Source: Brachionus koreanus
Lineage: Eukaryota > Rotifera > Eurotatoria > Ploima > Brachionidae
DNA: 32,457 nucleotides
Assembly: GCA_016987375.1 (NCBI GenBank)
Contig: PJRA01000420.1
Coordinates: 44,944 to 77,400, forward strand
Direction of reading: 5' to 3'
Below the pieces are notes generated by a model that worked only from the letters and a program-made list of their open reading frames with translations, was not told where the DNA came from and did no database searches. Each line of letters begins with the position of its first letter. Within the stretch, counting starts at the first letter, position 1. Both the position numbers and the translations under genes were made by a program. Positions 3,001 through 31,815 of this stretch are shown here, piece by piece.

Positions 3001-6000
3001 TTATTTATTTTGACTAGTGGACATGTTATTACCAAATATGTCTTCATGAAATCTAAAATTTTCTTTCATTGAATTCAAATAGTCTCTGGCATCTTGTAAA
3101 TTAAGTTTAGAATTCGAATGGTTTACAAGTTGTTGTTCAAGCATTTGTGTCACATCGGCAGCCATTCGAACATCGCCACATACATAAAAGTGACCATTTT
3201 TATTCCACACCAAATCGAACAAACTTTCTCCATTTGTCTTCATTATGTCTTGAACATACATTTTTTTCTGATTCGGCTCTCTACTATATGCTGGATAATA
3301 TTCGGACAACACATTTTCCTTGAGCATTTGATCAATCTCATTTTTGTATATTTCATCAACATTTTTTTGTCTACATCCGAAATAAAGAATCATTTTTCCC
3401 CAGCCGAGTCCGTTTAAACCAGTTGGATTTGGCATCATTTCTTTTTCAATTTTTCTCTCTTGCCAAAAGCTTCTAAATGGTGCAATTCCTGTGCCTGCAC
3501 ACACCATAATTATAGGACAAGTTTTGTCTTCGGGTAGTCTAAAACTGGGAGCTCTAAAAAAAACAATTTTTTTGTTAGAATAAAAATTTGAATAAATTAA
3601 AAATTTTAAATTAATTTACTCTCTGATAAAAATTGGCACAGAATCATTTGCTTTCATTTCGTCGAGCCATTTTGAACATACACCATAGTGAGTTGACTTG
3701 CCCAAAGGTGTATACTCAATCAAACCAACAGTCAAATTAATTAGATCTGTTTGTTTCGGGGAAGAGCTAATACTGTAAAATCTTGGTTGTAATTTGGGTA
3801 GTTTGGTTATTAAGAGACTTGGATTTGGTCTAAGACTGGGAAATTCTTCAAGCACTTCAACTAAATTAGGATATCCATTCAACTTCCATTGTTCATAAGC
3901 TATGTGATCTTGTGATAGTTTCTCTAATTTTTCTCTATCCGAGTCTGTTGATGCTTGACTGCTCAAATATTTAAGCATGTCTTGACTAAGTGGTGAAGTA
4001 ATGTCAAGTAAATTTGTAAATGCGTGTCTCAGAGTAAATGGCAAATGCTTTTCGTCAACGACCCATTGTTTGCCTGGACCAAATATTGACGATTTTTCTT
4101 TGAGTATTTCAATTTTAATCATTTGATCTGGTGGTGGTGCATTGGACAATTTGTCCAATATGGCATCAACTAAATTTTTTCTATTTGAAGCAAATATCCC
4201 TACATGATCACCTGGTTTATATTGCAGTTCGCTTGAATAGCCTGTTGTGCTTATTTCTACAAGCAAAGTAACACGACCCGAGTTAATTGTTTGCAAATTT
4301 CGTTTTGACACAAATTTACAATCAAAAACTTGACGTTCATGAAGCTTTTGCAATGATTCGTACAAGTCAAAATTATTGTCGTCATGCATAGTCAAACGAA
4401 TTGTTTGAGGACTCCAGTCTAAATCAGAATTTGACAATATTTCCATAAACGAATTGTCAGTGTCAATACAAAAATAGTCAACAGCTGATTTAAATGATTC
4501 AAAAGACCATTTGCGAAATGATTCTTCTTGACCACATAGTTCATCGCCAAGGCCAATATCGTAAACTCGTTCGGCTCCAATATTATTCAATATTTGGTCT
4601 AGATACTTTCCGAATGCACAAAATTTCGGATACGATGAATTGCCCAATGCAAATACCGAAAATCTAACATTACTTAAGCCAAGTGAGTTAGTTAGTTCAG
4701 AACTATTGTTCAACAAACTGCGTTCTTTTTGCATGTCAATTAAAATTTTTTTAAAATCTTTGCCATTTTCTGGCGGATCACCATTGCCAAATGTTGATGC
4801 TACAATTAAAAGAAGTGTTTCATTTTCCAAATCGACAACATCATAGTCTTTCATACATAATATCTTTTTTTTTTTTTTTATTAAATTTAATTTTAAAAAA
4901 ATTTTTTTTTCAATAAAAATTCAATTTACCCTCGGATCAAATGCATGCTTGAAAAGATCTGATAATGTTTTGGCAAAACGTTCCGATTTACCAGTCTCAG
5001 TAGCATACAGTATTGTGCATTTAATTCGTTTGGCCATTGCTTTACCCATTAATTTAGCTGAAAATTTAACAGCTCTAGCTATATCACTAAAATAGACGCG
5101 TCGTTTCAATCGTCTTGTTTCTTGATTTGTATTTTTTTGCTTCCAAACATGATTTTTCCATGCAGGTTCCTTCATGAAAAAAAAAAATTTTTTATTCATT
5201 CAAATATTTAATTTGATTTTTTGTATTTTTTTATCTAACTTGATATTCATACGAAGGCTTTAGGATATAGTTAAGCATTTCAAGATGAAAAACAGGTGTT
5301 AAATGAGACGACAGAGGCGGCACCACCCATACCCAATCGCCAGGACAACCTCCTCTGAGAACACTTTCATTTTGAAAGTGTTTAATAAATGATTCTGCTG
5401 CTGAATGATGATCAGTAATTGTAATTTTATTTTTTTGAAATGAATACAAAATAGCATGATTTAATTCAATCAAAGCTTTGTCTTTCCATAAAGAAGAATT
5501 ACTTTTCCTATCTAAGCATAGAACATCTGCTATTTGATCAAGTTTATCATATCTATTTACATCGGCAAAATCACGTCCAATTTCAGTACCCATATACCAT
5601 CCATTAAAAGGACAAGCTGTAAACTCAATACCGCCAACATCCAACATCATTGAAGACACACCAGGTACACAATACCATTTTAAATTAAGGTCTTTGAACT
5701 TTTCATAACTGGGATGTTCTATGTTCACTTCAAGCACTAATTCAGACGGTATATCAAACCATTCCGGATCCAAGCCATTTGCTTGAAGAACCAATGGTAA
5801 CACATCAAATTCAGTGTATTTTGGTTTCCAACCGAGTTTTATACAAATTTGGGTAAATTCAAGCTGAGCTCTATCACCAATATAACTTCCGTCTTCCATT
5901 TTGTATCCAGCATAGCTTATAAATTGAGAATTCCATATTCTAAAATCATGTCCCGATTGTGTTCTTTGACGAAAAATTGTTATGGCGGATCTAATATTGC

Positions 6001-7426
6001 CTTTGTTTGTAGCATATTTTAAATGATTGCACAATGCCTCGAAAATACTTTTATTTAAAAAAAAAAAATGAAAATATAATAAAATAAATAATTTCAATTC
6101 AACCCTCTTGCAGTTGTGACATATCGAGCATCGAATACCTGCAGTCGAGACCATTGTATTCTACCAATACATCTGGGCGCATTTCGCCATGCAGTCCGAG
6201 CTCCAAAACACAATTCAGTCTCTTTTAGCTCATATGTGCCTTTTTCTTTAATAGAATTTATCACTTCACTAATTCTTTCTTGATGTGTCTTTGATCCTTG
6301 ACGTTTAACGCTTGCATAAAATTGATTTATAAAATCAATTGCTTGATTTATTTTTTCTTCTTTTGATCGCTCATAACTTGGAACTGTTTTGCCTGGTTTT
6401 AACAATGAACCTAAGCATCTTTCAGTCGAACATTCAATTTTCTTGAAATTTAATAATTAGAAAGAAAAAAAAGTATAATATAATGCATTTGATTATCTAA
6501 AAATTTCATTAAAAAAAAAAAAAACAACACCAAAAACAACAATTTTTCAATTTTTAACTTACTGTAAAGGCTTGATGATGCAGCAAATCGATATTATTAC
6601 TTTCATCAATTAAATATTTGAGTTTAAGACCTTTTTTTTTCTTTTGTTTAGCAGGTGACATCTCACCGACTTTGGCCGATGAATCGATAGATTGTATTTT
6701 TTCGATTGATTTGCATTCACTCTTCGTTCTATTTGATTCATTTAAAGTATCTTGTTTTTGATCAAGCTGATTATTAGTTTGAGAAATTTTTTGTTCAGGC
6801 TCGGGCGACATACAAACAGTCCGGTTGGTTACTATCTCCAAGCCATCATATATTTTTATACGAATATCATCACCTTCTTGAATTATACGAATTGAATTCA
6901 AATTTTTGGTTGTTAATGGCTCTGAACTATTGATTAAATTACATTGAGTGTCCGAATTGTTCAATAGAGGTTTTTGCACATCTGATTGATGCGATAAAGC
7001 ATTGCCCAAATATTCTGTATTATCTGGCAACGAGTCTTTTTTAAATTGATTTTCAGACGCACAATTCATAAATTTTTTGCGCAATTTAACTATTGGCGAC
7101 ATTAGACCATTTTTTAATCCATTCAATTTTTCACCATCTTCATTTTGTATCAAAGTTAATTCAACTAAACTGTCCGTTTTAAGCGATCGAATAATCTCCA
7201 GACCTTTTTCATAGCTTATACTTGACAAATCATGTTTGTTTACTCTAAGTATAATGTCTCCCTTGCGTATACGACCACATTGTTCTACTGATCCATTTTT
7301 TATTATGTCCCAAACTGCTAAATATGGCATTTCGTCGCGTTGTCTCAGTAAAAAGCCCAAACCTCCGACAGTCTTTTTAAGATGTACTGTGTACACTTTT
7401 TTCGAACAGTTGTTATATTTAGACAT
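3001..7426 (-). CDS. NOS: Nitric oxide synthase with N-terminal PDZ domain (neuronal type)
   Basis: It makes NO and citrulline from arginine, O2 and NADPH. My exons on the minus strand are 7426-6563, 6441-6104, 6047-5240, 5169-4930, 4863-3620 and 3553-3001. All are GT-AG with matching phases, giving 1348 residues. A PDZ domain with GLGF (about 11-95) is followed by a low-complexity linker. The oxygenase domain has the zinc motif CSTERC (292-297), the haem cysteine in WRNAPRC (379) and GWYMGTEIG with the arginine-binding Glu. A calmodulin site around 692-720 resembles the nNOS site. The FMN domain follows ([18 protein letters not shown]), then the FAD and NADPH domains ([31 protein letters not shown]). 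PDZ domains target nNOS to membrane scaffolds. The autoinhibitory insert in the FMN domain is only about 20 residues and the C-terminal tail about 9 residues after EDIFG, both far shorter than in nNOS. Confidence 0.95.
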
Positions 7427-9599
7427 CTTGGAAAAATGTGGAAAGCAAAAATGAAAAATTAAAAAAAAATCAAAAAGCCTTTATTAAAATAAGAAGCGGC
7501 GGAATCTTCCGAATATGTTATAATTATTCCCTATTTATTTTTTTAATTATAATTTAGATCATTATTAAACTAAAAGCTGTAATCATAAGTGGCAATCTCT
7601 CTTCTACTAAATATGTGATATTTTTTAATTTAAATAAAATTTTTTTTTTAAAACCAAATATTTTTTTCTTGACAAAAAAAATAAATTTAATTTGAGAAAA
7701 AATAATATTCTTATTTTTTTTTGAATCTAACAAGCAAGCAAGACTATAGAGTCCTGGAAAAGTATCGATGTTTATCATTTGTTTTTAAGTACTTAAAAGC
7801 AATTATCTCAAATAAAAGTTTTTACTATGGCCATCTAAAAATTACTTATAATTCGAAATATTGAAAATATCTAATTTGATTAATAATTAAAGGTAATTTG
7901 CCATTTTCGAGATAATAAGAGCGCAAAATGAAAACTAAATATATTTGTTCTGCACAGAAGATAATTTTTGTTTCCGACATTTGTCATAATAGAAATGTAA
8001 TTAGACCTTCAGAAAAATTCTACACTAGCTAGCTCTAACTTGTTCGTTATGACTATCAGAGAAAGAAAAAAGTTATTTTAAGTATTCTTGAAGATTTCTT
8101 TTTGATATTTTTGTTAGCTTTTGTCAAAGAAAGAAAAATACAAAAAAAGTCAAGACAAATATTTTATTATTTAGCAAAAATAAACAAATTAAATTTAAAT
8201 ATTTGACAAAGTTAAATAAATAATTTTTTTTAAAGAAAAATAATTGACTTTTTGAAAAAATAAGGCGCTATTCAAATACATAGCAATGGTGAGAGAAGCA
8301 ATTACAACAAGAAATTGAAATCGATTAAAATTATTTAACAAAAAATCAAAAAAGGAATTTAGCACGCAAAAGAAACCAGCTTGATGCAGCAAATTTTATT
8401 GCCGCATAAACCTTTAATTGCCAAGATAAACCAAAGCCATTCGTGTAGCATAAATATTTGTTTTAAATAAAATTCATTTCCGATTTTTGCCTGGATTATA
8501 CACTCATCGGCTCATATCGGAAAAATTACATATTTTTCAAAAAATTTATTAGCATACTTAAAAATTAATTTTGCAAGCATTGCCTGTTTTGGTTCAATAA
8601 AAAAAATACATATAAATGATTAAATTTTTCAAATTTATTTAATTCAAATTGAATGATACTTATTGTTCCATTTTGTGCAAAAAAAATCAACTAAAATTTT
8701 ATTTTGAAAAAAAAAATTAATCAATTTATCATTCTTAATTGACCTTTAATAAATTTAAAATAACTAAAAATTGAATTGAAAAGTAGTTTTTTTTTTCACA
8801 TAGTTCATGTATTAATATCAATTGTTGAATTAATATTTTTGCAATAAATAAAACAATTAAAACTATTTTCAAACAAGCAGAGTTCATTTTATGATTTGAT
8901 TTGAGCACCAATTTAAGAAAATTAATCTTTGAATTTTTTTTAATTTCTTTACATAAATGATAAAAAAGTTGTTTTAATGTAATTTTAGTAACTTAGTATT
9001 TACCTTCGTAGGTCTATAGTTGTTTGTTGATAGTTAATTGGGAAAAAATTTTCTTCTTTATATTAAATATTCGACTTTAAAGCAGAGAATTAAATTGCTG
9101 GGAAATGAGAAAAAACGGGCTGTTTTCTAGCTCAATTTTTGCAAAGTTTATTTTTCTTGTTGCTTAAATTTTGACATAAATCAAGGTTTAAAACATAAAT
9201 AAACATAATAATTTAAAACATTTTGTTTTTTTTTCGAATTTATTTTAATTTTTTTTTTTATTTTAAATATGATAAAAATATAAAAAAATTTCAATGTTCA
9301 ATTTAACTAGAAATATCAGATAAAAAATAATTTTTTTGTTGTCGCTAAAAAATCTATGATTGAACCCGATTAAAGTTCTCCTCGAAAAAAATACATGAAT
9401 ATGTGCCCGATACCATTTTGAATGTATCCACTTTATAATACTAATTAAAAAAAAAAAAAAAAAACTTCAATTTACACTTTAATAATTAATAATTTACATA
9501 ACGAAACTGGAAATGGTTAAATAAAAAAAATAATACTATTTAAGACTAATAGGTATAGTATTAGAAAAAAAAAAATTTAAAAACAAAACGATTCCTAAT
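7427..9599. other. Spacer between NOS start and eEF2K end
   Basis: A 2.2-kb AT-rich spacer that should hold the NOS promoter and 5' UTR and the 3' UTR of eEF2K. The short open frames here (about 65-75 codons, minus strand) are low-complexity F/I/K/N-rich and I do not treat them as genes. A GC-richer patch just upstream of NOS (7493-7514) contains GGAATCTTCC. Another patch around 8385-8520 is less AT-rich than its surroundings, but I can assign nothing to it. Confidence 0.4.
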
Positions 9600-11669
9600 C
9601 TATGATTCTTGTTCGTCTTGACTAGCAGCAGCTTCTTCGGCTAACATGTAATACTTATTGGCTATACGACCTTTACCGTATTGTATTGCTTTGTCGGCCG
9701 CTTCAGTGTACAAATTGGCGGCAATAGCGGCATTTTTAGGCATTTTATGTCCGCCTTTTAAATTCATTTCGGCCAAACAAGCCAAAATCAAATAATTTGG
9801 ATCACATTGTGCAAATGTGTCCGAATAGCCGGCATCATCTTCACTAGCCGACTCTTCCTCAATCATTTGTAACAATTTCTTGTAATATACACTTGCCAAA
9901 TTCCAGTCAATTTGTTTTGATTTTGGCAAATTAACACCAGACTCGTAGGCTTTGGCCAAAACAAACAAACTATTCTTGTCTTCTAGATCGGCACTTTTAG
10001 TCAAATAGTCAAAGCCAATCTCATTGTTTAGTTCATTTTCTGTGACCGAATAATTAGACAACAAATCATGTGGCATTTGTAAATAAATTTTAGCCATATT
10101 TACTAAAGCTTCTTTTAGACCAAGATCAGCCGCTTGTTTCAAATGGAAAAAAGCCGACTCTTGATCATAAAAGTCATAGCCACTATTGGTTTGTTCAGTA
10201 AATCTGCCCATTTCATGATATTTGGCCATTTCCAAATGTACTTGTCCCAATATTGATTCATTTTGAGAATTTAAATTCTCTTCTTCGTCATCATCATCTT
10301 CAAAATGATCAAAATTTTTCATTAGTCTTTGTTGTCCATTGACACAACTAGGCTTTGGTTTAAAATGCTTTCTGGCGTCTATTTTGTTAAAATAACTAGC
10401 TGCTTCATCATAAGAAAAAGCCGAATCCAAGCAACCTGATTGTGTTCGCATTCTGGCACCATTTATAGCTATTGGATTCGATTGCGATGGTCTATTGAAA
10501 CTAATTGGCTTTGATGAGTGTGGCGACATGGGCGATGAAGACGACGACTCGTATCCCTCGGATTCCAAGTCGTCGCTGCATGTAGACATGTTACGCACAC
10601 GACGACGCAATATCTCACAAAAACTAGTCGGCGAACCGACAACAAGTTCTTCACCACCTCGACAAATAGTAGCCGCCGAATAGCTTGCTAGTGAAGTTTG
10701 AGCTTTTTTCGAATGCAATTTGTCCAATTCATTTGGCGACAAGTCAAATTCGGTCAAGCCAATACTTCGGCACACACGATTGCACACATGGCTTGAGAAA
10801 AATAGAGCAAAACCTTTGCAGCCTAAATTTCCGTCACCATAGTCGTCGCCTTTAGCTGTGTGTATTTGTGGATCAGTGTATAAATCACCCACACCTTGTA
10901 CATCAACAACCATTAGTTCATGATTCGAGCATTCGAATGTAAAATGACTAAATGCCTGCGGTGTCGAACGAGTGTCTTCGACAAAGCCCGAATTTGAGTT
11001 GTATTTAATGTATTCGCCTTCGATAAAATGTTCCAAGTGAAACAATGGCGAACCATCTCTATTCACAAATTCCAATATGCTCATTTGAAACATGTCGATT
11101 TTTTTTGGCGGATTGTGTCTATTGAATATTTCTGCCCATAGTTTAGCGTCCATTTGAAGACGCACATCGTCAAAGTATCGCTCACGTTCAATACTCTTGT
11201 CCATATAGCTCTTGGCTACATAGTTGGCCGCATGCTCCCAACTTTCTTTGTGAACAAAATTGGACAATTTCTTCAATCTAAAACAGGCCCTCATTGCACC
11301 ATTGGCAAATTGTTTGTCCTCAATTTTAACTTTGCACTCGTCAGTTATCCACTCTTTTTTAATGGCATTATATCTGTGTCTAATTACAACCTCTGTCGGA
11401 TACTTGTTCAAATCGAACTCGGTCCACGGATCTTTTAAACGCTTTAGCTTAGCTGCAGCCATGTGCCAGCGATGTCGCGCCATTGTTACACTATTTGTCA
11501 ACGGAATTGACTTTGACTTTTGCACTGGTTTCTTTTTTTGACGAAAATTTTCCATGCCAATTGGATACATTTGACCTGATACACATGTGACCAAATTGGA
11601 CGGGTCAACAAATGAATTGGACAAATTTTCGGTCAACGGAAATATATCGTCCTCTTCGAACAAATCCAT
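9600..11669 (-). CDS. EEF2K: Eukaryotic elongation factor 2 kinase (alpha-kinase)
   Basis: It phosphorylates eEF2 and slows translation elongation when activated by Ca2+/calmodulin, in the cytosol. The single uninterrupted frame encodes 689 residues, close to the usual ~725. The calmodulin-binding segment is at about 66-83. The alpha-kinase domain is at about 118-305: NGAMRACFRLKK, FHLEHFIEGEYIKYNSNSGF, the catalytic VVDVQGVGD (254-262) and the glycine-rich GDGNLG (278-283). A Ser-rich regulatory loop follows, with RRRVRNMSTCSDD and a run SSSSSPMSP, which is the region holding stimulatory and inhibitory phosphosites in the family. SEL1-type helical repeats fill about 475-675 and end in NKYYMLAEEA, matching the conserved C-terminus needed for eEF2 recognition, plus a short acidic tail. 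The absence of introns stands out beside the multi-exon NOS and Slo1 genes. The start is the only Met near the conserved N-terminus. Identification is secure. Confidence 0.96.
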   Translation of the reverse strand: MDLFEEDDIFPLTENLSNSFVDPSNLVTCVSGQMYPIGMENFRQKKKPVQKSKSIPLTNSVTMARHRWHMAAAKLKRLKDPWTEFDLNKYPTEVVIRHRYNAIKKEWITDECKVKIEDKQFANGAMRACFRLKKLSNFVHKESWEHAANYVAKSYMDKSIERERYFDDVRLQMDAKLWAEIFNRHNPPKKIDMFQMSILEFVNRDGSPLFHLEHFIEGEYIKYNSNSGFVEDTRSTPQAFSHFTFECSNHELMVVDVQGVGDLYTDPQIHTAKGDDYGDGNLGCKGFALFFSSHVCNRVCRSIGLTEFDLSPNELDKLHSKKAQTSLASYSAATICRGGEELVVGSPTSFCEILRRRVRNMSTCSDDLESEGYESSSSSPMSPHSSKPISFNRPSQSNPIAINGARMRTQSGCLDSAFSYDEAASYFNKIDARKHFKPKPSCVNGQQRLMKNFDHFEDDDDEEENLNSQNESILGQVHLEMAKYHEMGRFTEQTNSGYDFYDQESAFFHLKQAADLGLKEALVNMAKIYLQMPHDLLSNYSVTENELNNEIGFDYLTKSADLEDKNSLFVLAKAYESGVNLPKSKQIDWNLASVYYKKLLQMIEEESASEDDAGYSDTFAQCDPNYLILACLAEMNLKGGHKMPKNAAIAANLYTEAADKAIQYGKGRIANKYYMLAEEAAASQDEQES

Positions 11670-13306
11670 TTTGCATCATTTAATTTAATAAAGATTTAAT
11701 TAAAACTAAATTGTATCTAAATTTAATAATAACAAATATTAAAAATGAAAATTTATTGAAAAAAAAAAATATAAAATTGAAATAAATTGATCATCTAAAA
11801 GTTGATGCTTTTATACATGAAAATTCTAGCTCTTTGAACATTAACAATTGGAAAAAAAAAGAATAGAAATCTTCTAATATGTCGTTTTTTATTATGATTT
11901 TTAGTTTAGAAACAATCATTCAAGATAAGCTATTTGATTAAATTGCAAATTTTCACTCCATAAATGCGTGTATTTCAAAGTAGCATTTAAATTGCGCACA
12001 ATATTTTCTTTCTAATTCTAATACCTAGTATAGTAGAAAATAGTAAGTAACTAATGTAAATGAAGAATCTCCTCGTGGTTAATGGTTGCAACAAATTTCT
12101 ACTCTATTAGTAGTAGAATCACATGAATAGTTACGTCGTAATTTAAAGCATACAAATTTAAAATATTTGCTAACTATTTTACAAAAAACGTGATTTTTAT
12201 TCTTAAATGGGCTTAAATTGAGTTACGCTCTATGTAATTTACCTATATACTTAATTTAGTTAGAATAAATCGAAATATTCTTAATACATTCTCATCAGAT
12301 AATTTTCCGATCATCAGATCATTGAACAGTTGCTATTAGCAACTATTCAGCAACTATCTTGTAGTAAATTGATGATTTTTTTTATTTTAAATGAAGAAAA
12401 GATAAGCACATGCTTTTAAATTTACAAAGTACCTGGATTGACTCATCGTGTAATTTCTATCATATTTTTTGTTGCAACTAAAAGATGCTTATCTCAATAC
12501 TTAATAATCAAATGTTTTGAGTTCTAAATGAATAAAAATTTTTCTAGTATTTATAAGAATATTTCATATTAGTAAACAAAAAGGTTGTTTCGACCATTAA
12601 TTAATCTCAAGTTCTAAAATTAGTTTTCTATTTTATAAAATAATAATAATAATAATAACAATAATAATTAAAATGCGCTATATGGACTCTTTTGAGCATA
12701 ATTTTAAAGTTTGTGTTGAGCAAAAAACGTGTGCAGCATAGGCTTATGTAGAGTGAATTTTTATTTTACGTTTTTTGCTTTTTTTTTTATAAATAGTTTA
12801 CTAGTTTGAGTTTATCTAATTCGACTTCACCTTTTTTAGCGTTAGTAACAAACAAAAATATCATCAATTCTTTTTTCATCATAGGCTTATATTAATATTG
12901 TTATTTTGCTCTAAATTTCCAACTTAAAAGTTCATGCAAATTGAAAAATTATTTTTTAAAAATAAAAAAATTATAAATCTTAAAATAATTATTATTCATT
13001 TTTTTTAATTCATCCAATTTTTAAAATTAAATTCAATATTCATCAAAATGTATATTGAATTTAAATTTAAAAAATAAAATTGATTTATGCATTATAAAAA
13101 TAAAATAATTGACATCATTTGTTGCCAATGTAAGCAAGCAAGATACTCTTGACATAAGAGAAGTCTGATCAGAATTTGAAGTGCAGTTTTCGAGGAATAA
13201 TTTAGAAAATGTATCAAATTTTAAATTAGTCATTCATTTAATTAAATTCAAAATTATTGTTTAAAAATAAAAAAATTATAAAAAAAAAAACAATTTAGTA
13301 AATTTT
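11670..13306. other. Spacer between eEF2K start and Nudix gene end
   Basis: A 1.6-kb AT-rich spacer with the presumed eEF2K promoter. It contains a TAA microsatellite and an 11-bp inverted repeat (12720-12730 and 12768-12778, GCAAAAAACGT). On the minus strand, two codon-like open stretches (13233-13147 and 12885-12787) could be exons of a small gene; see the findings. Nothing else is recognisable. Confidence 0.4.
12641..12669. repeat. (TAA)n microsatellite
   Basis: About nine TAA units with one ACA interruption. An ordinary trinucleotide repeat in an intergenic spacer. Confidence 0.9.
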
Positions 13307-21829: not shown

Positions 21830-22338
21830 NNNNNNNNNNNNNNNNNNNNNNNNNNNNNNNNNNNNNNNNNNNNNNNNNNNNNNNNNNNNNNNNNNNNNNN
21901 NNNNNNNNNNNNNNNNNNNNNNNNNNNNNNNNNNNNNNNNNNNNNNNNNNNNNNNNNNNNNNNNNNNNNNNNNNNNNNNNNNNNNNNNNNNNNNNNNNNN
22001 NNNNNNNNNNNNNNNNNNNNNNNNNNNNNNNNNNNNNNNNNNNNNNNNNNNNNNNNNNNNNNNNNNNNNNNNNNNNNNNNNNNNNNNNNNNNNNNNNNNN
22101 NNNNNNNNNNNNNNNNNNNNNNNNNNNNNNNNNNNNNNNNNNNNNNNNNNNNNNNNNNNNNNNNNNNNNNNNNNNNNNNNNNNNNNNNNNNNNNNNNNNN
22201 NNNNNNNNNNNNNNNNNNNNNNNNNNNNNNNNNNNNNNNNNNNNNNNNNNNNNNNNNNNNNNNNNNNNNNNNNNNNNNNNNNNNNNNNNNNNNNNNNNNN
22301 NNNNNNNNNNNNNNNNNNNNNNNNNNNNNNNNNNNNNN
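21830..22338. other. Assembly gap of 509 N
   Basis: Unsequenced bases. An acceptor-like TTTTAATTCTAG ends at 22399, just upstream of the Slo1 start codon, so a 5' UTR exon and the promoter of Slo1 may lie in or before this gap. Confidence 0.99.
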
Positions 22339-22420: not shown

Positions 22421-25400
22421 ATGGGCCAAACATCAACAAGCTTGGACAATAACAGTTTAGATCCGGAGTGCATTGGTCGACGCTATTGGTACGTATTTCT
22501 ATTGTCTTCATTGATAACATTCTTTGGAGGCCTATTAATCATTTTTGTGTGGCGACTTTTGAAGTTTTTGTTTTACGGAAAATTTTTCAAAAAAATTCGT
22601 AAAAGGGTAAAATAATTTCTATTTTTGATTCCTAAAAATTTTAATAAACAATAAATTTAGATTTTAAATATAGAAAACAGTGATACAGTTAATTATTTGG
22701 AAATAAATGACACAGAAATTGGTTGGGTGACAGCAGCTAGAGATTTTTGCGGTGAGCTCATATCAGCTCAGTCGATATCAGGCCGAATATTGGTAAAAAT
22801 ACTGAAATAATTTTTAAAACTCATATTGTTCATTTATCTAATTTTGAAATTTTTAAGAATTTGTGATAATTTTTAATTAATTTTAAATGCTAATTTTTTA
22901 AAGAAAATTTTTCTTTCAGATGACACTGGTATCCATTCTGAGCGTTGGTTCTTTAGTTATATACTTTTTTGATGCCAGCACATCGTAAGTCTTTTTGTAT
23001 AATAAATTATTAAAAAATTTAAATTTAAATGTTTTTTATTTTTCAATAATTTTAAATGTTTTCTTTAAGGCCCATAGAGACTTGTCAAAAATGGAAAGAA
23101 TCACTATCGCAGCAAATAGATCTTGGCTTCAATTTATTCTTTATGCTCTATTTTTTCATTAGAGTAAATTTTAATTTGAAAAATTTTTTTTTTATTGTCT
23201 ATTTTAATTTTAAGTTTGTTGCTGCTCAAGATAAATTCTGGTTTTGGCTGGATATTTATTCTATAGTTGACTATTTTACTATTCCACCATCGTTTGTGAG
23301 CATTTACTTAGACAGAAATTGGATAGGTCTAAGATTTTTGCGTGTTCTCCGTTTAATGAACATTCCGGATATATTGCAATACTTGAACATACTCAAAACT
23401 AGTAATTCGATCCGGCTTACCCAGCTTTTTGTCATGTTTCTTTCAATTTGGTTGACTGCAGCCGGATTTGTTCATTTAGTAAACTTTATTTAATCAAACA
23501 AGATTTATGTATAACTTTAATTGACAGTCAAGCCTTTATTTATTTTAATTACTTACCAATAATAGGTGAACAAAAAAATTAAAGTTATACTAATCAAAAA
23601 GATAAAGTGAAGAGAAGTTGAAAAAAAATTTAAAAAAAATTGAAATATAGGTTGAAAATTCAGATTTTGAATACACAAATTCGAGTCGAAATTTAACAAA
23701 TATGCCTTATGAGCTTCAAAATGCACATATAAATCAAAAAACTTTGCAAAAAAATCTTCACTTAAGTTATTTTGATAGCATATACTTTATAGTTGTGACA
23801 ATGTCAACGGTAAATAAGTTAAATTTGAACAAAAACAGATAAAAAGATAAATTATTTATTTAAAAAAAAAAAAAAATTAGGTAGGCTATGGAGACGTGTA
23901 CTGCCGTACCACTCTGGGCAAAGTATCAGTTGTACTATTGTTATTTTGTGGCATTGTAAGTCACATATTTTATTTAACTTCTCTTTGTCGTTGTTCTTGT
24001 TTGTATATTCTTTTTTAAAATATGTTTTAAATGTTTGTCTATGTGTTTAATTGTTAGATTGAAAATACCAGTGATTACATAAGCGGTACAAGTCAGCCGC
24101 TAAGTCATCTTGACTCTATTTATTTGCTTATTGTGTTGGTTATTTTAGCTTTTAGATTTAACTTTAATTGACATGATTTAAAATACATATATAAATATAT
24201 TTATATTTGCATCATTTTTTTTATTAAATCGTGCCAATCTATGTTTGCTAGATATGTGTTAAATATTTAAATATTTAAGAACTATGTCTACTGTTGGATA
24301 TGGTGATGTGACTTGTAGGTAATTTCTTTAGGTCAATATGTTCACTAAATTTTTAATATTTGTTTTTATTTATTTTCAATCAGAACTGTACTTGGAAGAT
24401 TATTTATGTTGTTTTTTATAATTGGTGGACTTGTGAGCCTTTTCTATACATTTTGTTCATTCATAAATTTATTTATTTAATCTTTAATAAAGGCTGTTTT
24501 TGCAAGTGCAATTCCAGAACTAGCACAAATAATTGGAAATCGTCCGAAATATGCCGGTGCCTACAAAGTAGAAAAAGGAAAAAGGTATATTATAACAAAT
24601 TTTCATTTCTTATTAATTTCTCGTGTTTTTTTTTTGTAATATTAGTTTTTTTTCCAGGTCAAATTTTTAAAAAATTAATTTAAAGCTTTATCCCAATTAT
24701 TGATGCTATTTAATGCCGTTTAATATTTAGACTTAAATGAGATTTTTGATTTTGAAGATAAGGAACAAACTTAAATTATCATGTTCGAAATTATTTTAAT
24801 TTTTAATTTTTTAGAATTTTCTTAATTGGAAAATTAAATGCAGAAGCATATTTTCACTTGTAGCAAAAAATGTACATCCATAGCAAAATATTGTGCATGA
24901 TTCTGCATGCATAAAATTTTTGCAGAATTTGCACACCTAAAATATTAAGTTTAACATTAAAATTTTACTTTGTGAAAATATGCTTCGGCAATAAATTCTT
25001 TACTTGAATATTATTAAAAATCCTATTGCTAATGATAAATTTTGAAAATTGATCATAAACTTTAATATGCCAACTTCTAGGACAATCAGTTCTTATTTTT
25101 CTAAATTAAAATTCTCTAAAACAAAGTCTTAAAATGAGTGATACACAATCGAAATTCAAAAAATTAAAATTAGATTTCAATAAATTTCAGTTTCCGAAAA
25201 AATTTTAAATTTTTTTAAATTTTCAGAAAATTTTATAAGAATAATTTTTGAACATGATCTTTAAATTTTGATCACAATAATATATTCATCAAAGGAATTG
25301 AAAAAAAAATTTAACAATATGAAGCGAAAATTAAACACCTTGTTTTGATTTAATAAATAGATAAAAATCGGTTTTGTGAAGTTTGGTACAAAAATAAAAA

Positions 25401-28400
25401 AAATTGAACAAAAATTAGTTCTAAAAACACTTATACCTTTTTATTAATTAATTAAATGATTAATAATGATGTTAAAAGTCTAATTTGTCCAAATTTAAAT
25501 AATGCTAAATTTGCAGAGTTTTACTGGATTGTTGAAAATAGTGCAACTTTTAATGTTGCACCATGTTAAATTTACAGAACTTGCTTTTGACTTTTAAAAA
25601 AAAAGTTATAAGAATTTTCAACATTTTGTTCTGTTCTATTGTACTAAATTTCACAAAGCCCTAAAAATCTAAAATTTTTTACTTAAACACTAACAAAAAA
25701 TAGGTATATTCAAAAATAAATTTTGGCGATAAAAATTATCAATAAACCAAGAAAAATATAGAAAAAATAAATTTTAATTTTTTTTATTTAAAGGCACGTA
25801 TTTGTCTGTGGCCACATCACATACTTGACTGTTTCTAATTTTCTGAATGAATTTTTGCACAAAGACCGCGAAATATACGACATTGAAGTTGTTTTTATGA
25901 ACAAGTAAGTCAATTGATATTTATCTAAAGATCTAATTTATAAATAAATATATTTATAAAAAAAAAAAAGCAGAGATAAAGACCTATTAACATTTATGAC
26001 AAATAATCTCATTAAACCCTGAATTTTATTATAGATAACATTCTAGCTTAAAACAAAAATAAAAAAAAGATAAAAATATAAAACGTTTTATTTTTTATTC
26101 TATGAAGAAAAAAAAATTAAAAATTAATGAAAAAAAAATGAGACTAAAATACAAATATTTCCTTGGATTGATAGCAACCATAGGTCTAATTAATATCATT
26201 GTCGTGCACAAGCCAAAGCATATAAGAGTCAAAGTGAATAAGTTAATTTACATCGTACAGGACTTTGTTGATCACTACATAGCCAAACTTAATCCAGTAG
26301 AAGATAATGAATTTGCTGAGCTTGATGACTTTGGTTCAAACAATTCAAAGTGTTTTTTAGCCGATCATGTAAGCACACGATCAAAACTAGCCGAACAATA
26401 TTTGGAAACAGATCGTCAATTATTACAAAAAATATTCGATTCATGTCGTGCAAATTTTAGCTATCAAAAAATAATCAAAAATGAAAACCATCTAATAAAA
26501 TTAGATTTTGATTTATTGTCTAAATTGAGCAATACACATTTGAATGACATTAGATGCAATGCATATAAATTTGACAAAAAAATGGACGTGTCCGAACAAG
26601 ACAAACAAATTGAAATTACCGGTCCCATTTACAAATTTAACACAGATCAAATTAGAGTGCAAACTCATGGATTTTATTATATAATTTGTCAAAATGCGGC
26701 TAACAAATATTCGAAAATATTTGATAAAATAATGACTGTGTATCCAAGTGATATGAGTATGTTAATTGCAGATAGACAAAAATTTAAAACTTCAAATCAT
26801 AGCTCAATTCACAATTTACCAGGTTTGAGTTTTAGTCAAGATGATAAAATGAATGTTTTAATAATTGGCATTGATTCAGTTTCGTCTAGCCATTTTAGAC
26901 GCATTTTTCCGCTCACTTTTAAATACTTGTCCACTCTTGATCACAATTTAATATTCAATCATTTTAATTCTCTTGGCAGAAATACTTTGCCTAATGTTTT
27001 GGCCATGCTATCCGGTCTAATTGACCCGGAAATAAACGATCAACTTAAAAAAGACATTGATGAATATAGAAAAAATGATAGTAGTATATTTTATGATAAT
27101 GTGCCATTTTTGTGGTATGACTATGAAAAAAATGGCTATGTAACTATGTTTCAAGAAGACGATCCAGACATAGCCATTTTTAACTATTTGAAAGAAGGCT
27201 TTGGACAAAAGCCTACTGGTGTGTACGGTCGACCATTTTGGCTTAAATATTACGAGAGTCGTTCTGGACCAGACAAATGTCACTATTCTTATCCAACCTA
27301 TTTTACTTGGTTTGATATGATAAATAACTTTTTAGAAGCAATTGAACAGAGTTCAAAAAAACGAGCCTTTTTTAGCTTTAATTTCATGACCGAATACACA
27401 CACAACTATTTTGCCATACCGGACCAAATGGACCGAGACATGCGCAATTTTTTGTCTCAACTTGATATTGATAATACTTTATTGGTGATATTTTCTGATC
27501 ATGGCAATCGATTAAAATTCTACTCTTATGCAACAGAAATGGGCAAATTTGAAAAGCATTCGCCATTTTTGAGCATAAGAGTACCAACAAAAATGACTCG
27601 GACAAAGTATTTTGTCAATATGAAACAAAATACAAATAAATTAATCTCATTCTTTGATCTCTATCAGACACTAAGACACTTTTTGTTTCTCAATAGACAC
27701 GGAACAACAAGAGGCCACGAACACGAGTTCAAAGCGAACTCGATTGGCGATAGAGCGAGACGCGGAACGTCTCTTTTTGAAACAGTCAACAAAGACAGAT
27801 CGTGTGACGAGGCTTACATACCTGCTGATTTGTGTCCTTGTTTGAAAAATTATCAGCTTAATGAAACAAATTTTAGTACAGAGACTGGTTCTAGTTTTGA
27901 ATTGGTGTCACAAAAATTATTGCAACATTTAAACGCTAAAACTGATCACATTCGATCTAAATGTAAAAAGTTTAAATTTGAAAAATTAGTTCAAATTAAA
28001 AAATTTTATCTAAAGCAAAAATCAATTTATAGAATAGTTTATATAGTTGAGCCAGGCAACGCATGGTTCGAAACCAAGTTGGTTTTTAGGGACAAAAAAA
28101 TTGAAATTAATGGTCATACTATTCGATTGAGTGCGTATAACGATCAGTCTAAATGTATAAATGATTTTAAATTAAAAGAATTTTGTTTTTGTTCTTAATC
28201 TCTGCTTTGCCTAATTTAAAATAATTAATAAATTTTTCTTTTTTTTAATCGTTTTGTTTGATAATTTTTTGAAAGTGTTCTGCCGGATTTGGACTTGGAA
28301 GCTTTGTTTAAAAAAAATTTTACCCAAGTTAAATTTTTACAAGGAAGTGTTATGAATCCAATTGATTTAGACCGTGCTAAAGTATTATTTTAAAAAAACA

Positions 28401-31400
28401 AAATTTTAAAATTTAAAAAATAAAAACCATCTAAAAGATAAAACAGGCAGATGCTGTTTTAATTTTGGCTAATAAAGAGTCGCTATCGCCTGATAGCGAA
28501 GACGAAGCTAACATAATGAGAGTAATATCCATTAAGAATTTTTTTCCCTCAGTTAAAATTATTATCCAACTACTGCAATATCACAACAAAGTAAAAACAG
28601 TGTAAATTTAAAAAAAAAAATAATTAATCATCATATCCTTTGAAGATGTATTTGTTGAATATTCCGAGTTGGGATTGGAAACAAGGTGACGAGGCTGTAT
28701 GTATTGCCGAGCTAAAACTTGGTCTAATGGCTCAGTCGTGTTTAGCACCAGGATTTTCTTCTCTAATGGCTAATCTATTCGCTATGCGTTCATACAAAGA
28801 AGTAAATAAAATAAATATTCTTTTTTTCTTAAAATTATTCCATGTTGCACCTTTGTTGCAATTAAATAGGTATTCAAAGATGGAGCTCTGTCTATATATA
28901 AAGTAATAGAAAAAAAATTAATTAACAAGCTGCTTTTGACTTTTTTATTTTCATTTAACTTGACACATTGATTACTTATTTTTTTACTAACAAAAAATAA
29001 AACTAAATTTATCTAGTATAGAGGGGAGGTCTGTGAATAGGATCAAAAAAAAATACGAGTTTTGTGGGCGTTTTTATTTAACTAAATAATCTTTTATTTT
29101 AAAAAAAAAAGAAACTAATCATTTAAACAATTTATTAATCTATTTTTATTTGAATTTAGACCAAATTAACTTTTTTTTTTATTTTGCTAATCTTAATAGT
29201 TAATCTTATTTTTTTATTTTTGTAGTAAATTCTAGTAAAAAATAAAATTCATTTTATTTGCTTAGAAAGCTTACAAGGATCCATGGCTACCACAATATTT
29301 AAGAGGATCATCAATGGAAATGTACACAGAATATTTATCGCCAGCATTCACCGGCAAAACATTTACCGAAGCAGCTATGTAATCAATTTTCTTCTATTTT
29401 TAATTAAAATAATAAAAAGTTTTCAACTTTATCTATATTTAGAATTTGTTTTACTAAATTAAAATTATTATTATTGGCTGTTGAGTCGAGCAATGAATCA
29501 GGTATCGGCTCTCATCTGTCGATAAATCCTGGAAACAAAGTGCGAGTTGAAGCAGGCACAAGGGGATTTTTCATAGCCGGCTCATTCGAAGAAATTAAAC
29601 GAGCTTATTTCTACTGTCAATATTGTCACCAAAATGTAGTTGACTTGAACAAAATAAAAGAATGCAAATGCAATCAAGGTAATTATTACAACCTAAATAA
29701 GCTGTTAATAATTAAGAAAATAAACTTGTGTAAATATGATAAGAGCTTAAAAGTTTTAAAAAAAATTTGCGCAATGTAATAGGTAAATTTTGTGATTTTC
29801 AACCTTTTATTTGTATTAGTGATTTTTTTTTGCTTTTGGTTTTTGTGTGTAATGCTTATTTATTTTTTAATTTTTTTTCACTAGCTATTAAATAATTAAA
29901 TTTAAAAATTTTAGCCAAAAGCCTTTTGGGAAAAACAATGGAAAGAATGAAAAAAAAATCAATGGTAAACCAAGAGGAATTGGTCGTAGAAATGTATTTA
30001 ATTGAAATAATCTTATCTAGAAAAAAAAAATATTTATTTAAAAAAATAGACCCGATGAAGAAGAACTTTTAACTAGTAAAGAAGAGCAACATTTGAGAAC
30101 TGATTATTTGAATACTGACGAAAAATTTGACTCAACAGGAATGTTTCACTGGAGCGAAGAGCAAAAATTTAGCGATTGTTTGCTGGATAATTGTACCAAA
30201 CATTCGTCATTTATCGGACATGTGATTGTATGTGTGTTTGCCGAGCCAAATTCTCCTCTAATAGGCCTGCGTAGTTTTGTACTGCCACTACGCGCCAGCA
30301 ATTTACACTATTCTGAATTGAAAAAAATAGTTTTTATCGGAAACAAGGACTTTTTGTTCAAAGAATGGAAAACTTTGTGCAACTTTCCAAAAGTTTATAT
30401 CCTACCAGGATCTCCGAACAGCCGATCGTTGCTAAGATCGGTAAATATTCAATTTTGCGACATGGCCGTCGTACTTTCAAGCATTGACCGAGACTCTCAA
30501 GACGAAAATTTAATAGATAAATCAGCAATATTGTGCTCATTGAATATTAAAGCGATGAATTTTGATGATTCTGCTGGTCTAATTGGCCAAATTGATCAAA
30601 TATTGTCGCCAAATATGCTATCTTGTTTAAAACCTGGACAAAATTGGAAGACAACTATTGGGCTCAGCATCCCAATGCTAACTGAATTAAGTAAGTTCAA
30701 AATTAAATTAATTAAATACTTAGAAACAATAAAAAAAAAATAGATGAATATTTTGTTAATGTTTATGTTAAAGTTTTTATTTAGATTCTAATTGAAATTT
30801 TTATTTTGTTTGGTTTCACACAATTAGATTAGACTATTGAAAAAAATCCATTATTCAATTAAATAATTTTCTATTTAGTTTATTAAATTTAATTTAAAAA
30901 ATTTTCAGAAAGTTTTAAAATAAATATTAGTTTGCAGTATTTTTCAGCTGATTAAAAAATTTGAATTTTTTCCAAGGAGTAGATTCAAATGTTCAATTTT
31001 TGGACCAAGATGACGAGGATGATCCAAACACAGAGCTTTACATGTCTCAACCATTTGCTTGTGGTACTGCATTTGCTATAAGTGTACTAGATTGCATAAT
31101 GAGCACGGCCTATTTCAATGACAATGCCTTAACACTTGTAAGGACGTTGATTACTGGCGGAACTACGCCCGAATTGGAACAAATTTTAGCTGAAGGAGCA
31201 AATATAGCACCTGGCGATATACGAGACACATATCAGAACCGTAATCGACCAAGAGTGTCTCAAATATCGCTTTTTGATGGCGAGTTTGCCAAGTATGGCG
31301 AAAATCGTTTGTATGGTGAACTGTTTGTTTATTGCCTTACTAAACACAATATGCTTTGTTGGGGAGTATACAGGTTTCGTGATGCTGAAATGGCCTCTGA

Positions 31401-31815
31401 GAATGTTATCACACCAAGCAACAAGAGATATGTAATATGCAATCCAAGCGCTGACTTCAAACTTATTCAAACCGATTTAGTATATGTATTGGAACAGTTT
31501 AATCCGAATAAGATTGTCAAACGAGAGAGCTTAACTAGAAATGAAATTCAGCATTTGCCCGATCTCCAAAATCAGTTTAAAAGAGCACCGTCAAAATCAT
31601 CGGTTCACACTGAAATTGGTCTCAGACAAGCGTACTCTAAATCGCCTTCTCGTAGTCGTCGAAAACGATCAAATAAAAATTCATTAAAAAAGTCAAATAC
31701 AGATAAAGAAGTGAATGTCAATTCAAGTAGTTTTGCTCTTAAAGAAAAAAAACCTATTGATCCTAGCCAAACAGATAGTTTATTAAAACGAGAAATAAAT
31801 GAATCAACTTTTTAG
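22421..31815 (+). CDS. slo: Slo1 (BK) calcium- and voltage-activated potassium channel
   Basis: My exons are 22421-22606, 22661-22792, 22920-22984, 23070-23163, 23215-23478, [23651-23809 + 23881-23955] or [24058-24134 + 24280-24318 + 24384-24432], 24493-24584, 25794-25904, 28276-28381, 28447-28590, 28646-28801, 29266-29378, 29443-29678, 29915-29993, 30050-30690 and 30977-31815. All junctions are GT-AG and keep frame. The product is 1163 residues with the first pore cassette or 1140 with the second. It has S0 ([16 protein letters not shown]), S1-S4 with sensor LRFLRVLRL, the pore, RCK1 ([15 protein letters not shown]) and RCK2 ending in the calcium bowl [16 protein letters not shown]. The C-tail is Ser/Lys-rich. 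It conducts K+ in neurons and muscle when Ca2+ rises and the membrane depolarises. One intron (25905-28275) contains a whole DUF229 gene. Confidence 0.94.
23651..23955 (+). other. slo: Slo1 pore cassette A (two exons)
   Basis: Exons 23651-23809 and 23881-23955 encode 78 residues: a long turret (about 44 residues, with sequons NSS and NLT), the pore helix [12 protein letters not shown], the filter VGYGDVY, and an S6 reading [16 protein letters not shown]. The outer boundaries are phase 0. The internal intron is phase 0 and lies between TMST and VGYGD. S6 is unusual: the double-glycine hinge of BK channels is CG, and the Phe residues are lost. The exon sequences are open and well bounded by GTAAAT/GTAAGT donors, so I read this as functional rather than a relic. 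Confidence 0.8.
24058..24432 (+). other. slo: Slo1 pore cassette B (three exons)
   Basis: Exons 24058-24134, 24280-24318 and 24384-24432 encode 55 residues: a short turret ([14 protein letters not shown]), pore helix [12 protein letters not shown], filter VGYGDVT, and an S6 [16 protein letters not shown] that is very close to known BK channels. The outer boundaries are phase 0. The two internal introns are both phase 2 and fall at V-TMST and C-R-TVLG, unlike cassette A. This is the conventional-looking pore. Confidence 0.9.
24585..25793 (+). other. 1.2-kb Slo1 intron between pore/S6 and RCK1
   Basis: Bounded by GTATAT and TTTAAAG, phase 2 on both sides. Apart from the foldback element at 24839-24990 it is plain AT-rich sequence with no open frame of interest. 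Confidence 0.6.
24839..24990. repeat. Foldback (MITE-like) element with nested inverted repeats
   Basis: The ends are 19-bp inverted repeats with one mismatch: TGCAGAAGCATATTTTCAC at 24839-24857 and its complement at 24972-24990. Inside is a second inverted pair, TGTGCATGATTCTGCA at 24892-24907 against TGCAGAATTTGCACA at 24921-24935. The whole could fold as a long hairpin. I see no target-site duplication and no transposase, so a non-autonomous element or a structured intronic RNA are both possible. Confidence 0.5.
26102..28198 (+). CDS. DUF229 family protein (alkaline-phosphatase/sulfatase fold), nested in a Slo1 intron
   Basis: An uninterrupted 698-residue frame. A short basic N-terminus (KKKK...RLKYK) precedes one hydrophobic helix at about 18-36, giving a type II, Golgi- or ER-lumen-facing topology. 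The DUF229 hallmarks are [64 protein letters not shown] and [10 protein letters not shown], the last followed by a [13 protein letters not shown] segment. The Asp in GIDSVS and the DHG pair correspond to the metal-binding residues of the alkaline-phosphatase superfamily. The C-terminal part has many cysteines ([13 protein letters not shown] end). Its biochemical activity is unknown. The gene lies wholly within the 2371-bp Slo1 intron 25905-28275, same strand. It has TATAAAA at 26077-26083 and AATAAA at 28227-28232, so it can be transcribed on its own. Confidence 0.9.
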   Translation: MKKKKLKINEKKMRLKYKYFLGLIATIGLINIIVVHKPKHIRVKVNKLIYIVQDFVDHYIAKLNPVEDNEFAELDDFGSNNSKCFLADHVSTRSKLAEQYLETDRQLLQKIFDSCRANFSYQKIIKNENHLIKLDFDLLSKLSNTHLNDIRCNAYKFDKKMDVSEQDKQIEITGPIYKFNTDQIRVQTHGFYYIICQNAANKYSKIFDKIMTVYPSDMSMLIADRQKFKTSNHSSIHNLPGLSFSQDDKMNVLIIGIDSVSSSHFRRIFPLTFKYLSTLDHNLIFNHFNSLGRNTLPNVLAMLSGLIDPEINDQLKKDIDEYRKNDSSIFYDNVPFLWYDYEKNGYVTMFQEDDPDIAIFNYLKEGFGQKPTGVYGRPFWLKYYESRSGPDKCHYSYPTYFTWFDMINNFLEAIEQSSKKRAFFSFNFMTEYTHNYFAIPDQMDRDMRNFLSQLDIDNTLLVIFSDHGNRLKFYSYATEMGKFEKHSPFLSIRVPTKMTRTKYFVNMKQNTNKLISFFDLYQTLRHFLFLNRHGTTRGHEHEFKANSIGDRARRGTSLFETVNKDRSCDEAYIPADLCPCLKNYQLNETNFSTETGSSFELVSQKLLQHLNAKTDHIRSKCKKFKFEKLVQIKKFYLKQKSIYRIVYIVEPGNAWFETKLVFRDKKIEINGHTIRLSAYNDQSKCINDFKLKEFCFCS
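28870..28902 (+). other. slo: Candidate 33-nt cassette exon of Slo1 in RCK1
   Basis: The segment lies between an AAATAG acceptor and a GTAATA donor, is 33 nt, phase 0 on both sides, and encodes [11 protein letters not shown]. It sits 68 bp after the exon that ends MRSYKE, a typical intron length here. The channel aligns to other Slo1 proteins without it, so it would be an optional insert of eleven residues. Confidence 0.45.
28903..29265 (+). other. Slo1 intron remainder with a G-rich segment
   Basis: AT-rich except for 29016-29070, where GAGGGGAGGTCTGTG and TGTGGGCG stand out. It is preceded by an acceptor-like ATCTAG, but the three frames do not give a clean phase-compatible exon. Confidence 0.35.

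Follow-up and report, generated by a model that had tools for sequence, protein, structure and literature searches.

The known variety of BK channels, the products of Slo1 genes, comes for the most part from auxiliary subunits and from splicing in regions other than the conducting pore. Can the pore itself be exchanged within one such gene? The question is raised by a stretch of 32,457 nucleotides (nt) from contig PJRA01000420.1 of the rotifer Brachionus koreanus (hereafter, the window), in which a complete Slo1 gene (22421-31815, + strand) contains two complete pore cassettes, A and B, between the exon encoding transmembrane segment S5 (23215-23478) and a shared downstream exon (24493-24584). 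The structure of the gene makes it likely, in our assessment, that a Slo1 pore cassette with phase 0 at both ends was duplicated in tandem and that the two copies are used alternatively, by splicing that is probably mutually exclusive.

Two pore cassettes in a rotifer Slo1 gene

The exons that make up and flank the two cassettes are the following, all on the + strand.

23215-23478, +: Slo1 exon 5, voltage sensor to S5, with a phase-0 end at GFVHL (alignment to solved BK structures; match to B. plicatilis P0077)
23651-23809, +: cassette A, exon A1, long turret and pore helix, up to TMST (conceptual splicing; A-type pore in B. calyciflorus P0122)
23881-23955, +: cassette A, exon A2, VGYGD filter and S6, with Cys-Gly at 310/311 (conceptual splicing; BK structure numbering)
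24058-24134, +: cassette B, exon B1, short turret and pore helix, with the weak donor GTTGGT (conceptual splicing; donor score)
24280-24318, +: cassette B, exon B2, filter, with Thr at 294 (conceptual splicing; structure alignment)
24384-24432, +: cassette B, exon B3, canonical S6 (conceptual splicing; structure alignment)
24493-24584, +: shared exon, last part of S6 (AVFASAIPE) plus the RCK1 linker, with a phase-0 start (conceptual splicing)

Each cassette encodes a turret, a pore helix, the TMSTVGYGD filter and S6, begins and ends in phase 0 and contains no stop codon. Cassette A consists of two exons (234 nt, 78 amino acids (aa)) with a long turret and is interrupted by a single internal intron, at ST|VG; cassette B consists of three exons (165 nt, 55 aa) with a short turret, and its two internal introns lie at other positions. 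The intron between A and B is 102 nt long, the other introns of the gene ranging from 51 to 2371 nt. The VGYGD motif occurs twice in the window, with both strands scanned, once in each cassette, and the AVFASAIPE motif of the shared exon occurs once. As is characteristic of tandem exons, the cassettes are adjacent and homologous, and their outer junctions, all in phase 0, make them interchangeable with respect to the flanking exons. At the local intron composition, an open frame would arise by chance with p=0.004 for 55 codons and p=0.0004 for 78 codons, so that chance frames are excluded even before the VGYGD motif is required.

An earlier note on this DNA had described such a pair of cassettes, and its account of the outer bounds (23651-23955 and 24058-24432) and phases holds, the internal exons being added here. 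Its phase-0 boundaries at GFVHL and AVFASAIPE were likewise confirmed, and alignment reproduced both the 16 residues that separate T(T/V)LG from the junction in either cassette and the identity of 23 of the 41 aligned pore/S6 residues, hereafter the core.

The assignment of the gene to Slo1 is supported by profile, structure and sequence matches. The 643-aa protein assembled through cassette A matches Ion_trans, Ion_trans_2, Slo-like_RCK and BK_channel_a above the cut-off, a shorter piece assembled through B (370 aa) matches Ion_trans, Ion_trans_2 and the start of Slo-like_RCK, and the last frame of the gene matches Slowpoke_C. BK channels are the top-ranked solved-structure matches for both isoforms. 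Over 88 residues, the exon that contains S5 shows 98% identity to a slowpoke-like protein of B. plicatilis (P0077), and its identity to one of B. calyciflorus is 95%. The exon starting at 30977 encodes, in the RCK2 region, an acidic stretch that we take, from its motif, to be the Ca2+ bowl.

No second Slo1 gene was found in the 83.3 Mb assembly by searches that score the best candidates only. Two other BK-type loci, on contigs C1 and C18, match the Slo1 exons weakly and presumably represent Slo2, and, within the reach of these searches, we rejected the idea that the gene is a dispensable copy with a second Slo1 elsewhere. Four further weak matches (26-33% identity, on C16, C2, C36 and C18) resemble other K+ channels.

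Comparison of the 41-codon cores of A and B points to a long history of selection on the protein. The proportion of differences is 0.85 at synonymous sites (pS, 25 of 29.5) and 0.26 at nonsynonymous sites (pN, 24 of 93.5), and pN equalled or exceeded pS in none of 2000 codon bootstraps. Because pN is far below pS, and with synonymous change saturated, both copies appear to have been maintained as proteins over most of a long span, which does not imply present-day upkeep of each.

Relatives, splice sites and rival readings

Of the two pores, A has the clearer rotifer relative. The B. calyciflorus gene model P0122 contains an A-type pore with a long turret, the core of which is identical to that of A at 38 of 41 residues, and A is therefore not a decaying copy. 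This contradicts the refuting case named in the earlier note, in which A would be a decaying duplicate; if either cassette is decaying, it would be B. We extracted 66 distinct full pore cores by pattern from 315 of 354 proteins (P0033, P0098 and P0117 were too short): 50 are closer to B, nine are closer to A, including the two rotifer-type cores of P0122 and P0028, and seven are ties. B appears to be the more conventional pore of the pair.

Three relatives, P0028, P0033 and P0098, come from metagenome or assembled-read sources and were read as proteins; we infer that they belong to rotifers. P0033 (279 aa) is 91% identical in the S5 exon, shows no sign of intron read-through in exons 1-5 and goes on directly from HL to a pore with a short turret and Thr at 294, so that it reads as a spliced message. 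It ends with KYI exactly at the B2|B3 break, which fits read-through into an intron at AA|GTATAT, as deduced from the protein. P0098 (73.6%) also has a short turret and stops at the B1|B2 position as if running into an intron, at AT|GTATGT by the same deduction. The intron positions of B seem to recur in these two rotifer-like sequences, B1|B2 in P0098 and B2|B3 in P0033. In P0028 (75%), S5 is fused without an intron to a long-turret, A-like cassette that ends in GI. On our reading, B would keep the older rotifer intron pattern and A would be derived, with at least one relative having A only; the 24-residue core of P0033, which is closer to A than to B, speaks against this. Viral contigs searched with the S5 exon for rotifer DNA gave 11 pattern matches and no relative.

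The only protein with two filters among the 354 is P0123, a slowpoke-like protein (isoform X9) from Lepeophtheirus salmonis, the salmon louse, in which HL|LENSGNFPRF...VGL|LENSGDPPNF...VGL|ALFAS delineates two whole tandem pore cassettes; another L. salmonis protein, P0058, contains only the second of these. Like the rotifer gene, P0123 has two complete tandem cassettes, whose outer junctions (HL|LENSG and GL|A) are those of the rotifer pair, and position 294 differs within both pairs (V and Y in the louse, T and Y in the rotifer). It differs in that it comes from an arthropod, in that both of its cassettes look arthropod-like, and in being a database model; we take its XP accession to denote a predicted model. 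No paper on the L. salmonis pore pair was found among the literature matches listed. Where the earlier note proposed a search of related species for the same pair, the B. calyciflorus model yielded A only, and the arrangement turned up instead in this louse model.

A tree of 29 cores and 41 residues, from which the partial rows P0033, P0098 and P0117 were excluded, unites A with the A-type pore of B. calyciflorus and with P0028 (96/97). B falls among the canonical cores with support that is not firm, and a single rotifer origin (79/98) is compatible with the tree. Neither louse cassette shares a branch with A or B alone. Because of this, and because both louse cassettes look arthropod-like, independent duplications in the louse and the rotifer are favoured, although not proven: A lies in one weak fork with arthropods, and with 20 of its 26 inner branches open, the tree can neither date the duplication nor establish independence from the louse pair. 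As a separate observation, six proteins (P0046, P0051, P0052, P0068, P0073 and P0074) carry DITC at the end of the filter and an S6 of the QLMFLAVGL type, and the two of them in the tree, P0046 and P0068, group with the first louse cassette (97/91); proteins of this type may be the sign of a paralogue, or of a pore duplication more widespread among copepods.

Splice sites were scored against 12 donors from the same gene, all GTA, with scores from -0.2 to 8.3, and against reference acceptors that included that of exon 11, later shifted by nine bases. The donors of cassette A score 6.0 and 5.6, those of cassette B -6.2 (B1, TGT|GTTGGT), 8.1 (B2) and -0.9 (B3), and the acceptors of both cassettes fall within the reference range. 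A stronger donor for B1 was sought by scoring four GT sites between 24100 and 24180; only the one at 24135 is in phase for the B2 acceptor, and the GT at 24139, despite its higher score (0.3), disrupts the frame. A weak B1 donor fits a regulated exon as well as a failing one.

The reading frame is kept whether A, B, both or neither is included, which confirms the earlier statement for double inclusion and extends it to zero inclusion, so there is no frame-based control of exclusivity. When five intron pairs were compared with dinucleotide shuffles, no docking/selector RNA pairing beyond chance was detected, and for the lowest pair 20 of 200 shuffles were equally low. Exclusive use, which the frame does not enforce and for which the five intron pairs showed no pairing beyond chance, would therefore need trans-acting control or a kinetic choice.

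The mutually exclusive swap put forward in the earlier note accordingly stands in part: the cassettes are intact and splice-compatible, with protein constraint between them, and the Slo1 gene is otherwise intact, whereas mutually exclusive use, although the most likely reading, finds no anchor in frame or in the intron pairs compared, and B has a weak first donor. A number of results weigh against alternative use. The B1 donor is the lowest of all donors scored in place, that of B3 lies under the reference range, and the search for intron pairing just described was negative. The B. calyciflorus gene model carries A only, and in P0028 the approximately 75 nt between the A-like cassette and the shared exon leave no room for B. 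No close relative of B was found in two protein searches with B (the best 120 of 282 and the best 120 of 407 matches) or in one with A (the best 120 of 7997); the best match to the B core among the fetched proteins is a fish sequence with 29 of 41 residues; and the 24-residue core of P0033 has 16 matches to A versus 13 to B. Alternative use is read here from the gene sequence and from gene models.

Much of this would also be expected if A were the working pore and B a once functional cassette that is being lost in this lineage and is unspliced or rarely spliced. The two low donors, the lack of B in the B. calyciflorus model and among the matches listed in the three protein searches, and the A-like-only arrangement of P0028 all point that way. 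We nevertheless regard loss of B as rather unlikely, since its frame is uninterrupted, its filter is perfect and its S6 is canonical, pN is far below pS, and the three B acceptors and the B2 donor score within the reference range. Far less credible is the inclusion of both cassettes in one mRNA, so that S5 would be followed by a first and then a second pore segment, the form in which L. salmonis X9 is listed. The length of each cassette is divisible by three, with phase 0 at each end, and the 102-nt intron between them is within the length range of the gene's other introns; but A's S6 would lead straight into the B turret, with no membrane crossing in between to return the chain to the outside, and no sensible topology would result. 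X9 bears an XP accession, as predicted models do, and the B. calyciflorus model has a single pore. An artefact of assembly or of haplotypes as the source of the pair can be dismissed in practice. A gap of 509 N lies just upstream of the gene (21830-22338), but it accounts for all N of the window and none are within the gene; A and B have different residues at 18 of the 41 core positions and different intron positions, whereas haplotypes would be near-identical. We therefore retain the alternative use of two tandem pore cassettes as the preferred reading.

Predicted channel properties and comparison with known exchangeable pores

If both cassettes enter mRNA one at a time, as the gene structure suggests, the swap would leave the voltage sensor and the Ca2+ sensor unchanged. 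Joining S5 to A and the shared exon would produce a long-turret channel that has Tyr 294 and an altered S6, in which Cys-Gly replaces the di-glycine hinge, and joining S5 to B and the shared exon would produce a short-turret channel that has Thr 294 and an S6 of the canonical type. In numbering by alignment to human BK chains (residues 168-380), A has Tyr at 294, Cys-Gly at 310/311 and Ile at 312, where B has Thr, Gly-Gly and Leu; the filter sequence is identical. The turret of A contains two N-glycosylation sequons (NSS and NLT) and that of B one (NTS).

Tyrosine at position 294 brings high external sensitivity to tetraethylammonium (TEA); a literature search for Y294 together with TEA found no paper. 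Tyr occupies this position in 34 of the 66 cores, and a split between Tyr and another residue in both the rotifer and the louse pair would be expected by chance about 1 time in 4, which makes the coincidence weak. In published work, Tyr294 is reported as a possible charybdotoxin contact (PMC4193333), the di-glycine pair as important for BK opening (PMC4319557) and Leu312 as a gating residue (PMC13148824). A and B channels would be expected to differ in gating and in external block.

With an exchangeable unit of turret, filter and S6, nature would offer a test of the extent to which the conductance, gating and toxin block of BK channels reside in that unit, and heterotetramers could mix A and B subunits. 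More speculatively, rotifers and arthropods might independently have made the same phase-0 BK pore exon swappable, each pair offering one mouth with Tyr 294 and one without, so that splicing would set external block, together with the di-glycine hinge of S6 in the case of the rotifers, while voltage and Ca2+ sensing stay fixed; we hold this broader idea to be possible but doubtful.

Exchange of pore or turret exons is already known from other channels. The shaker gene of the lobster Panulirus interruptus reportedly has pore I and pore II splice forms and a poreless form, pore 0 (Kim et al. 1997). That gene is a Kv1 Shaker and the rotifer gene is Slo1, so the comparison concerns only how the two would work; the rotifer cassette comprises turret, filter and most of S6, and is described here from the gene sequence.

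In NALCN, exons 15a/15b and 31a/31b are reported as tandem, mutually exclusive pairs in many invertebrates (PMC3557258). As in the rotifer, the swapped exons are described as covering the P-loop and filter and, in exon 15, also the near end of S6; unlike in the rotifer, they belong to one of four pore domains and the swap changes a filter residue from E to K (PMC3557258). The two rotifer cassettes share one filter sequence, and a swap could affect all four subunits. Exons 12a and 12b of Cav3 resemble the rotifer pair in being tandem alternatives that give one domain either a short or a long extracellular turret, and differ in that, as reported, they comprise the turret and the first pore helix only, with no swap of filter or S6 (PMC4436565).

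Within the Slo family, tandem duplicated exons are reported for Drosophila slo, C. elegans slo-1 and human KCNMA1, and of three such events in Drosophila slo one is said to alter Ca2+ sensitivity and another conductance (PMC9741552). For the exon pair 2a/2b of Drosophila slo, a change at the cytosolic face is reported (PMC6025963). These events concern the same gene family; the part of the survey considered here, which maps the exons on structure 3naf, mentions no pore pair (PMC9741552). Structure 3naf matched the rotifer Slo1 only from the end of S6 onward, and one of the three Drosophila events could touch the end of S6. We found no Slo1 pore pair among the matches listed from the open-access literature, which is weak evidence of absence. 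The earlier note knew of no pore-filter duplication in Slo1, in agreement with this outcome, although pore swaps exist in NALCN and Cav3 and the louse slowpoke model shows the same arrangement.

Other arthropod Slo models vary next to the pore. The beetle models P0002 and P0003 share the same pore and differ in the exon right after it, the counterpart of the rotifer shared exon. The Daphnia magna model P0124 contains two consecutive versions of this exon (AVFASWIPE... and IFASCIPE...), as if annotation had joined the two members of a mutually exclusive pair.

Remaining exons and neighbouring genes

The other exons of the Slo1 gene, all on the + strand, are listed below.

22421-22606, +: exon 1, start codon and S0 (conceptual splicing; match to B. 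plicatilis P0077)
22661-22792, +: exon 2 (conceptual splicing; P0077 match)
22920-22984, +: exon 3 (conceptual splicing; P0077 match)
23070-23163, +: exon 4 (conceptual splicing; P0077 match)
25794-25904, +: exon 9, start of RCK1 (conceptual splicing; Slo-like_RCK)
28276-28381, +: exon 10, RCK1 (conceptual splicing)
28438-28590, +: exon 11 (conceptual splicing; start shifted from 28447 after comparison with P0122)
28646-28801, +: exon 12, BK_channel_a domain (conceptual splicing; profile match)
28870-28902, +: 33-nt exon (counterpart VFAAGANILYK in B. calyciflorus P0122)
29266-29378, +: exon 13 (conceptual splicing)
29443-29678, +: exon 14 (conceptual splicing)
30049-30690, +: RCK2 coding exon, approximate start (open frame)
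30977-31815, +: coding exon for the Ca2+ bowl and C-terminus, with stop codon (open frame; Slowpoke_C)

The intron between exons 9 and 10 holds a gene for a DUF229 protein (26063-28195, + strand), and in the B. calyciflorus model P0122 a DUF229 stretch is fused into Slo1 at the same point. The nesting of DUF229 within Slo1 seems to be conserved, and the fusion in P0122 is probably a misannotation.

Elsewhere in the window, successive open frames on the - strand (3004-7480) match PDZ, NO_synthase, Flavodoxin_1 and FAD_binding_1, the frame at 3004-3615 lying outside the scan. This looks like a nitric oxide synthase gene, and its PDZ start, as we take it, recalls the vertebrate neuronal type. A long open frame on the same strand (9603-11675) encodes an alpha-kinase domain, with a Sel1 repeat match below the cut-off, and presumably resembles eEF2 kinase. 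Two tRNA genes in opposite orientation (2683-2753, + strand, and 2819-2890, - strand) are separated by 65 nt.
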